From an uncultured Clostridia bacterium (lineage in GTDB: Bacteria; Bacillota; Clostridia; Christensenellales; UBA1242): DNA of 39,752 bases. The translations under genes were made by a program, and so were the position numbers. The stretch is taken from assembly GCA_949841045.1 (NCBI GenBank), contig CATKXS010000011.1:1-39752 (forward strand). Reading direction: 5' to 3'. This document shows positions 23,976 to 33,656 of the stretch, piece by piece. Under the pieces are notes generated by a model, which was not told the origin of the DNA, made no database searches, and saw nothing but the letters and a program-made list of their open reading frames with translations. Within the stretch, counting starts at the first letter, position 1. Every line of letters begins with the position of its first letter.

Positions 23976-24051
23976 GGACTGCTAGCTCAGTTGGTAGAGC
24001 ATCTGACTCTTAATCAGGGGGTCCGGGGTTCGAGCCCCCGGCAGTCCACCA
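23976..24051 (+). tRNA. tRNA-Lys (CTT)
   Basis: GGACTGCTAGCTCAGTTGGTAGAGCATCTGACTCTTAATCAGGGGGTCCGGGGTTCGAGCCCCCGGCAGTCCACCA; promoter TTGACA/TATAAT upstream. Confidence 0.97.
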
Positions 24052-24057
24052 AAAAAT

Positions 24058-24080
24058 GACGGGAAAGCCCGTCTTTTTTT
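24058..24080 (+). terminator. terminator after tRNA-Lys
   Basis: GACGGGaaagCCCGTCttttttt. Confidence 0.85.
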
Positions 24081-24081
24081 A

Positions 24082-24228
24082 TGCCGGGAGCTAGCAACTG
24101 AAGTTGCTATGGCGTCCGCCATACGAACCCCAGACCAAGTCCGAGTCGGAGCTTTTAAGCTCGGTCATTCGACTTTTCTGTTTCTCCCGAAACAGGTCTC
24201 ATACTACGAGCCCCCGGCAGTCCACCAA
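24082..24228 (+). other. structured element ending in a displaced tRNA-Lys 3' end
   Basis: outer arms TGCCGGG (24082-24088)/CCCGGCA (24213-24219); internal hairpins GCAACTgaAGTTGC, ATGGCgtccGCCAT, AAGTC..GACTT, CTGTTTctcccgAAACAG; 24207-24228 identical to 24031-24052. Confidence 0.75.
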
Positions 24229-29998: not shown

Positions 29999-30050
29999 GA
30001 GCCTAGCGTTCCAAAAATCATTTAGATTTTTGACGTTAGGCTTTTTTTAA
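29999..30050. terminator. long hairpin terminator-like structure
   Basis: AGCCTAGCGTtccAAAAATCatttaGATTTTTgACGTTAGGCTttttttt. Confidence 0.75.
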
Positions 30051-30147
30051 GCCTTACGCTTAGCGAGCAACCAAATGTTGCACGACTATTGTAAGGAATA
30101 AATAAAATAAAAAAAAATGAACTAGGCAAGGTTGAAAGATAAAAAAA

Positions 30148-30481
30148 CGCTTGACGATAATCGCCAAGCGTAAGGTTCGGGGAACACATAGTAGGTTTAA
30201 TAAAGTGGCTAAGCCACACGATAAACGTCAAGCGTAAGGCTTGTGGTGCCGATGGTGGGAGCCTTTACCCTAAAAATCTAACGATTTTCAGGGGACCCAG
30301 AACCCATGGGTTCGCCTCCCACTTAATGAGAAAAATTTATTTGGAACGAAATAACTTTAAATAAAACAAACGCTTGACGATAAACGCCAAGCGTAAGGCT
30401 TGTGGAACGTAATAAGATTAATAAAGAAAGAAGTTGAACGATAAACGTCAAGCGTAAGGCTTGTGGTGCCGATGGTGGGAG
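30148..30481 (-). repeat. palindromic repeat array downstream of tRNA-Leu with a displaced tRNA-Leu 3' end
   Basis: four copies of (cgcttg)acgataaacg(c/t)caagcgtaaggcttg near 30153, 30218, 30372, 30438; 30218-30261 identical to 30438-30481 (44 bp). Confidence 0.85.
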
Positions 30482-30550
30482 TCGAACCCACATGAAGTTG
30501 CCTCCAACGGATTTTGAGTCCGTCGCGTCTGCCATTCCGCCACATCGGCA
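30464..30550 (-). tRNA. tRNA-Leu (CAA)
   Basis: reverse complement TGCCGATGTGGCGGAATGGCAGACGCGACGGACTCAAAATCCGTTGGAGGCAACTTCATGTGGGTTCGACTCCCACCATCGGCACCA. Confidence 0.96.
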
Positions 30551-32132: not shown

Positions 32133-32219
32133 GACTTTATTTTAAAATGTTTGATTACCTTTTCGCAAATCAATATTTGTCGAAGAGAGGCTAATATTAT
32201 ACAATTTAGGCAGGTGAGT

Positions 32220-33656
32220 ATGAATGAAAAATTAAAAGAATTGAAACGAAAGTTAAAACTTGTCAATGATGAAATAAAATTAAGGCAAAAAAATGATTAC
32301 CTTTCGAGATATAACACGGGCAAGTTTATACATAAAAAGCAAATTGAATTTCACAAATGTAAAAAGAAAAATAGGTGGGTGTTTGGTGGCAACCGCTCGG
32401 GAAAGACAGAATGTGGTGCGGTTGAAACGGTTTATCTTGCAAGAGGAATTCATCCATATAAAGATAATAAGCCAATATCATGTTGGGTGGTGAGTTTGTC
32501 AAGACAGGTTCAAAGAGATGTCGCTCAAGAGAAGATTCTTCACTATTTAAGACCTGATTGGATTGCAGATATTGTCATGTCAAGCGGAAGAGCGGATAGT
32601 GCTGAGAGCGGAATTATCGACTTTATTTTGGTGAGAAATGTGTTTGGGTCACTTTCAAAAATAGGGTTTAAAAGTTGTGACCAAGGTCGTGAAAAATTTC
32701 AAGGCTCTTCGCTTGATTTTGTTTGGTTTGACGAAGAACCGCCTTTTGATATTTATCAAGAATGCAGAATGAGAGTTTTAGATAGAAAGGGAGAAATCTT
32801 TGGTACTATGACACCGCTTAAAGGTTTGACATGGGTGTACAATGAGATTTATCTAAATACAAATCATGATGATAATGTTTGGCATATTTCAATTGAATGG
32901 GCAGATAATCCTTACCTTGACAAGGGAGAGATTGAAGCGATGACAAAGTCTTTGTCAGAGGAAGAACTCGAAAGTAGGCGATATGGCAAATTTATGCTGT
33001 GCGGGGGACTTGTTTATAATGAATTTGATGAGAGCGTTCATGTAATTGAACCCTTTGATGTGCCAAAAGATTGGTACGATAACATTTCAATTGACCCTGG
33101 TCTTAATAATCCACTTTCAGCGCATTGGTATGCTAAAGATTATGACGGAAACGTCTATGTTATCGCCGAACATTTTGATAAAGGAAAGGACGTTGCATAT
33201 CATGCAAGTCGAATTAAAGCTATTTCAGAAAGGCTTGGTTGGCATTACTATAATGGAAAAATTAGGGCGCTTATTGATAGTGCTGCAATGCAGAGAACAC
33301 TCGCCAGTATAAAAAGTGTAGTCGAGCTCTTTGCTGAGAATGATATTCTTGTCAATCCAAAAGTCAACAAGGACATGTATAGTGGTATTTCAAGAGTTAA
33401 GAGATATTTAAAGGACGGAGAAGGTAAACCTCATCTATTTATATTTAAAAATTGTATAAACATGATTGAAGAAATCAAAGGATACTGGTGGGGAAATGAG
33501 GACCTTCCTATTAAGAAAGATGACCACTGTTTGGATGAATTGAGATATTATCTTATGAGCATAAATCAAAATGAGCGGTTAAAAGAAGAAAAATCGGCTA
33601 TTCAAAGGGAAAAAGAGAGGCTTATTAAAAAACTTGACCGCTCTAGGCGAAAATAA
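32220..33656 (+). CDS. phage-type terminase large subunit
   Basis: VFGGNRSGKT (Walker A), DFVWFDEEPP (Walker B), nuclease acidic motifs SIDPGLNNP, ALIDSAA, DHCLDELRYY. Confidence 0.9.
   Translation: MNEKLKELKRKLKLVNDEIKLRQKNDYLSRYNTGKFIHKKQIEFHKCKKKNRWVFGGNRSGKTECGAVETVYLARGIHPYKDNKPISCWVVSLSRQVQRDVAQEKILHYLRPDWIADIVMSSGRADSAESGIIDFILVRNVFGSLSKIGFKSCDQGREKFQGSSLDFVWFDEEPPFDIYQECRMRVLDRKGEIFGTMTPLKGLTWVYNEIYLNTNHDDNVWHISIEWADNPYLDKGEIEAMTKSLSEEELESRRYGKFMLCGGLVYNEFDESVHVIEPFDVPKDWYDNISIDPGLNNPLSAHWYAKDYDGNVYVIAEHFDKGKDVAYHASRIKAISERLGWHYYNGKIRALIDSAAMQRTLASIKSVVELFAENDILVNPKVNKDMYSGISRVKRYLKDGEGKPHLFIFKNCINMIEEIKGYWWGNEDLPIKKDDHCLDELRYYLMSINQNERLKEEKSAIQREKERLIKKLDRSRRK

Follow-up and report, generated by a model that had tools for sequence, protein, structure and literature searches.

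A displaced tRNA-Leu 3' end with a hairpin insert in an uncultured Clostridia bacterium: a probable satellite of the RtT type

The window, which means here the whole analysed stretch of 39,752 nucleotides (contig CATKXS010000011.1 of an uncultured Clostridia bacterium), carries on its minus strand an intact tRNA-Leu(CAA) gene at 30464–30549, recognized by ARAGORN and by Rfam model RF00005 (61.9 bits). The last 18 nt of this gene (30464–30481) and 26 nt of its trailer form a 44-bp stretch, D (30438–30481), which is repeated at 30218–30261, also on the minus strand, where the displaced tRNA tail occupies 30244–30261 and is followed by the same 26 nt of trailer. A base-by-base check confirmed that the two 44-mers are identical and that neither side allows any extension; thus, the exact stretch joining a repeat unit to the end of tRNA-Leu, reported in the initial annotation, does exist. 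Read in the direction of the tRNA, the copies of D are offset by 220 bp and separated by a putative insert I of 176 bp (30262–30437, minus strand), delimited from the sequence and by analogy with the empty and filled lysV alleles of Escherichia coli considered below.

The end of the insert, in the tRNA direction, consists of GTGGGAGGCGAACCC (30308–30322, minus strand), which is an antisense copy of the T-arm of tRNA-Leu, then AT, GGGTTC (30300–30305, minus strand), the 32-nt hairpin GGGTCCCCTGAAAATCGTTAGATTTTTAGGGT (30267–30298, minus strand) and AAAGG; next come the T-arm 3' strand, the acceptor strand and the CCA of the displaced copy. GGGTTC is the T-arm 5' strand in sense orientation, and both sequence and fold give it the GAACCC of the antisense arm as a partner. 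The 32-nt hairpin, named core1, recurs in genomes of the same genus, and in other species the antisense arm is likewise antisense to the local tRNA. The heptamers GTGGGAG (30255–30261) and CTCCCAC (30316–30322) enclose the small palindrome GAACCCATGGGTTC (30300–30313) and CCCTAAAAATCtaacGATTTTcAGGG (30268–30293). Folding of the minus strand, both as RNA (–34.0 kcal/mol, z –3.1) and as DNA, upheld the three-way junction proposed earlier between these heptamers; as DNA, the strand of the tRNA reached –18.8 (z –4.2) and its complement –14.6 (z –2.35). The sequence likewise bears out a palindromic structure linked to a tRNA and to a displaced tRNA 3' end. The body of the tRNA is not replaced, as had been supposed: the functional tRNA-Leu is intact, and the structure lies within an extra, truncated copy. 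This layout exceeds chance, because the end of an exact 44-bp repeat coincides with the break in the tRNA and because the same layout is found at many independent tRNAs and species. Near the locus there is also a lone gene of a phage-type terminase large subunit (Terminase_6N/6C, 32151–33656), with no further phage gene among the ORFs tested.

A 32-bp palindromic unit occupies part of the same region. One exact copy lies inside the insert (30371–30402) and another, with 3 mismatches, at 30148–30179, neither being assigned to a strand, while two 5'-truncated copies are situated at 30218–30243 and 30438–30463. Thus, of the two complete and two truncated copies initially described, the truncated pair stands and only one of the others is exact. 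By terminator scoring, the unit makes a terminator-like hairpin between the tRNA and the satellite (30370–30394, minus strand), and a terminator-like hairpin with a T tract lies past the satellite (30147–30171, minus strand); judged from the sequence, the window copies look like predicted intrinsic terminators of the tRNA transcript. Of the roughly 12 loci at which the genome has the unit, 2 adjoin tRNA genes and most lie apart from any tRNA. It is therefore a dispersed terminator-like repeat without tRNA specificity and not the tRNA-associated element that it was taken for. The element linked to tRNAs is the core1 hairpin with its tRNA-derived arms, which is separate from the 32-bp unit; the first reading had merged the repeat array with the branched structure, and the tRNA link holds for the latter only.

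All four core1 copies in the own genome lie beside tRNAs (Leu-CAA, Leu-UAG, Glu and Met) and on the tRNA strand. A pattern search allowing few mismatches, applied to metagenome-assembled genomes in which some satellites lie at contig ends, found core1 in 32 of 112 genomes (species) of the genus, with up to 18 copies per genome and 0 matches in the controls, which were small; the pattern was absent from 375 genomes representing 141 other genera of the order. Among 136 distinct copies collected, 89 were within 700 nt of a tRNA, 88 of these on its strand and 75 with flanks matching the same tRNA; across the genus, tRNAs for Leu (five isoacceptors), Met, Glu and Arg are concerned. Satellites with 3' pieces of the tRNA stand downstream of it and have core1 in the T-loop, and those with 5' pieces stand upstream and have core1 in the D-loop. 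Downstream copies (n = 46) keep a tRNA tail of 15–20 nt, usually with an antisense T-arm, and upstream copies (n = 16) keep a head of 10–16 nt with a snap-back of the anticodon 5' strand. The duplication reaches at least 8 nt into the trailer in 15 of the 46 downstream copies; in 18 of the 46, the two trailers have no common base past CCA, for which a recombination event that replaced the trailer would be another explanation. Copies of core1 distant from tRNAs exist as well, the core there being part of other branched palindromes.

One core variant found in no other genome is common to Leu-UAG (D-loop, upstream) and Met (T-loop, downstream) in the own genome. Similarity of cores within a genome across different tRNAs was above that in shuffles (p 0.012), and pairs of loci that otherwise nearly coincide are distinguished by a complete unit (G029/G099, with 2 and 1 units, respectively) or by one core (G016/G026). 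From this private variant, the within-genome similarity and the sister loci, we infer that core modules move between the tRNAs of one genome. Cores at the same tRNA in different genomes likewise resemble one another more than chance would give (p 0.008), which shows that part of the pattern is inherited vertically.

Several other structures were noticed as well. Genome G029 has large tree-like inverted-repeat elements (L211:1400–1900, reverse strand, and L210), which start with CAGACTGTAG; the L211 element ends with CTACAGTCTG, contains core1 among its branches and has no match in Rfam. A second insert type (CCTGTCGGACCCGGACCGCGACGAGTCGCTCCCGGCTTTGGCTAAAAAC..), common to several species, occurs in anticodon-arm and T-arm satellites of tRNA-Leu (L061 and L292 in G004, L288 in G006 and L075 in G011). 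Dispersed tandem units of 60–70 bp (L006, L009, L299) have a central hairpin that varies yet stays complementary (CAAGC/GCTTG, CAGC/GCTG, GCAAAC/GTTTGC).

Partial self-copies of tRNAs are not confined to core1. In a survey of tRNA neighbourhoods in the own genome, a fragment of the tRNA's own sequence was found no more than 300 nt away for 12 of 37 tRNAs. Eight of these fragments are 3' pieces, every one downstream, and six are 5' pieces, every one upstream, so that 14 of 14 follow the positional rule. In G371, which belongs to a different genus of the same family, 11 of 32 tRNAs have self-copies, with a further insert type, and 12 of 12 pieces follow the rule; three genomes from other families gave 0 of 22, 0 of 11 and 3 of 21 tRNAs. 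Self matches of at least 12 nt were found for 16% of upstream and 21% of downstream flanks, against 0.4% and 1.3%, respectively, in unrelated tRNA/flank pairs. At tRNA-Asn and tRNA-Lys, a different insert is situated in the anticodon loop, being GCCAAGGAC..GTCCTGCGTAYGGAGC..AGCGGA in the former and a variant of it in the latter. The window itself contains a second tRNA with a 3'-end satellite (23976–24227), namely tRNA-Lys(CTT) on the plus strand (23976–24051, ARAGORN), whose last 21 nt reappear at 24207–24227, also on the plus strand, after a split antisense T-arm (24084–24092 and 24124–24131); the insert is multi-hairpin and different from core1. No known RNA family in Rfam matched the window insert or the other Clostridia insert types.

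The same layout is present in E. coli K-12 in the tyrT/tyrV repeats (RF00391, four units of 133–138 bits) and behind lysV (RF00391, 47 bits), and the argQZYV cluster has a weakly similar one. The tyrT repeat of E. coli was described in the older literature. In both organisms the tRNA is followed by an antisense T-arm, a branched core and the last 18–19 nt of the tRNA ending in CCA, the antisense T-arm and T-arm 3' strand closing a stem around the core; the trailer is duplicated within the unit (as the 44-bp D in the window), and the tandem copy number is variable, as in G099 and G029. In contrast to RtT, the window has an unrelated core, and the Clostridia lineage possesses upstream 5'-piece satellites as well and many more isotypes. 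The RF00391 covariance model gave no match at the window locus up to E = 1, with the positive controls L414 and L417 scoring 137.5 and 47.3 bits. In the E. coli stretches, 8 of 25 tRNAs were positive, a biased rate, since the choice was partly guided by the expected tyrT positive. In E. coli HR12-1 (L421:70–790), tandem tRNA-Lys genes have RtT-like units behind different copies, and one insert is shorter and different. In the literature examined, RtT is mentioned only in passing and the general layout is not described.

Alleles of lysV with 0, 1 (MG1655) and 2 units occur among E. coli strains. The empty allele reads [..GGTTCGA][D][TTGCG..] and the filled one [..GGTTCGA][D][93 bp][D][TTGCG..], where D of 63 bp starts after A58 in the T-loop and includes 18 nt of the tRNA-Lys 3' end and a 45-bp trailer, and the 93-bp insert consists of an antisense T-arm and a multi-hairpin core. 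D+I is thus all that distinguishes a filled allele from an empty one, and the lysV unit is an insertion accompanied by a direct duplication of considerable length. The insert is present in about 3206 of 5426 E. coli genomes, and many strains lack it.

In our opinion, the window locus is somewhat more probably than otherwise a tRNA satellite of the RtT type, that is, an insertion in the T-loop duplicating the stretch from the T-loop to the trailer and having core1 as a hairpin module in its insert. Its reading as an insertion is drawn from matching bookkeeping (D = 44, I = 176) and from alleles that only E. coli has shown; no empty site was found for the locus itself, the relatives being too distant. 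An insertion after A58 would duplicate everything from that point through the end of the tRNA and on into the trailer, 44 bp in this case, and the inserted DNA would be core1 with an antisense T-arm of the target and the T-arm 5' strand beside it. If the duplicated stretch ran from the leader to the D-loop instead, a 5' piece would appear upstream. The intact tRNA would remain and the displaced copy keep only its last 18 nt because the far end of the duplication lies outside the tRNA; a duplication with both ends within the gene would lose it. If the tRNA is spared in this way, 3' pieces are expected downstream of it and 5' pieces upstream, and neither the own genome nor G371 has an exception. 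Target-like arms were observed as antisense T-arms, snap-back anticodon stems and antisense D-arms, and it is inferred that a replication or template-switch step on a hairpin-prone tRNA gene makes them as copies of the target. The process might be the work of a recombinase that acts on folded single strands or of ordinary template switching where a fork has stalled; the searches made turned up no enzyme for it.

Other origins should be weighed against this insertion with duplication. An integrative element or prophage that used the T-loop as attB and was later deleted, leaving the displaced 3' end as a remnant of its attachment site, is improbable. Partial tRNA copies from integration of the tyrosine-integrase type are common (PMC9897764), and the window resembles them in having the displaced 18-nt 3' end as a direct repeat and the break in a tRNA loop, where crossovers of such integrases are typical; in G022 and G029 the sequences diverge directly past CCA. 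However, upstream 5' pieces, mirror images of the 3' pieces, are just as regular, one core is found at Leu, Glu and Met tRNAs, the inserts of about 100–200 bp are structured, with antisense arms and tandem repetition, and the E. coli alleles differ by D+I only. Unlike att sites of integrative elements, the locus has no element genes: no integrase was found among eight neighbouring ORFs, and the insert itself has 176 bp. A purely mutational by-product is unlikely, though a better candidate than an attachment remnant: a fork that stalls at tRNA hairpins, with snap-back template switching, would give quasi-palindromic partial duplications, the cores being neighbouring hairpins caught up in the process. 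Antisense arms, the snap-back anticodon hairpins of 5' copies and tandem units are signatures of such switching, and cores differ between genera. Both the recurrence of one 32-nt core at many tRNAs and in many species, almost without exception on the strand of the tRNA, and the precision of the loop boundaries argue against it, since random switching would not suffice for them.

That the satellite is a functional RNA, transcribed behind the tRNA and acting through a branched fold and a tRNA-like 3' end as a regulator or decoy, as was proposed for E. coli RtT RNA, may be considered about as unlikely as the mutational origin. RtT RNAs are products of tRNA operons expressed in Actinobacillus, where Northern blots showed them, and in E. 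coli (PMC4986893); the locus has a stable fold when read from the strand of the tRNA and a weaker one from the opposite strand, and the strand bias of 88 of 89 copies points in the same direction. However, the tRNAs concerned vary, a minority of species have the element and many E. coli strains lack the unit. In 5 of 7 pairs, both strands of stem 1 are altered, and 0 of 500 shuffles reach the covariation score; this is no proof of selection or function, because the arms would derive from the tRNA by copying. Strand-specific RNA selection is not supported by wobble pairs: G-T and A-C mismatches in stem 1 number 16 and 17, showing no strand preference, and the corresponding counts in the core, 29 and 0, all come from one position.

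Placement of a REP element by a RAYT transposase, to which the initial annotation had pointed, is very improbable. Short palindromes in intergenic DNA are common to the window and REP/BIME sequences; however, the arms here are tailored to the tRNA and placement is tRNA-specific, where REP elements are dispersed regardless of the gene. A Y1_Tnp/RAYT search of the own genome gave no match, and such genes, present in 13 of 112 genus genomes, are unrelated to core counts. Rickettsia palindromic elements and hairpin elements of organelles are short hairpins inserted in genes or structured RNA genes and, by description, resemble the window in this respect; by description, too, they differ from it, since in the present case duplication of part of the functional gene leaves that gene intact. 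Reverse transcriptase was rejected as a driver, RVT_1 being present in 26 of 112 genus genomes and absent from the own one. The exact core was not found in viral contigs, the phage matches listed cover the tRNA-Leu part of the query, and a plasmid search gave no match. SbcD, the loss of which was considered as a cause of palindrome build-up, gave weak matches below the cut-off in most genomes.

So far, RtT/tyrT repeats have been treated as an oddity of E. coli or as a small RNA. The RtT architecture was known already; judging from the sequences compared, the unrelated core, the 5' satellites and the many isotypes are what differs here. In a reduced lineage of gut Clostridia, this layout is found widely around tRNA genes, with cores unrelated to that of RtT, and obeys simple positional rules, by which many tRNA fragments could be annotated. 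The units of E. coli segregate as a clean insertion with a long duplication, so the origin of the repeats is directly testable in K-12 strains. We suggest tentatively, regarding it as a doubtful but conceivable generalization, that bacteria may hold a general, undescribed insertion process recognizing tRNA genes by their arm hairpins and not by sequence, which would bring folded modules into D-, anticodon- and T-loops with long target duplications and target-complementary arms, and of which RtT of E. coli would be one case.
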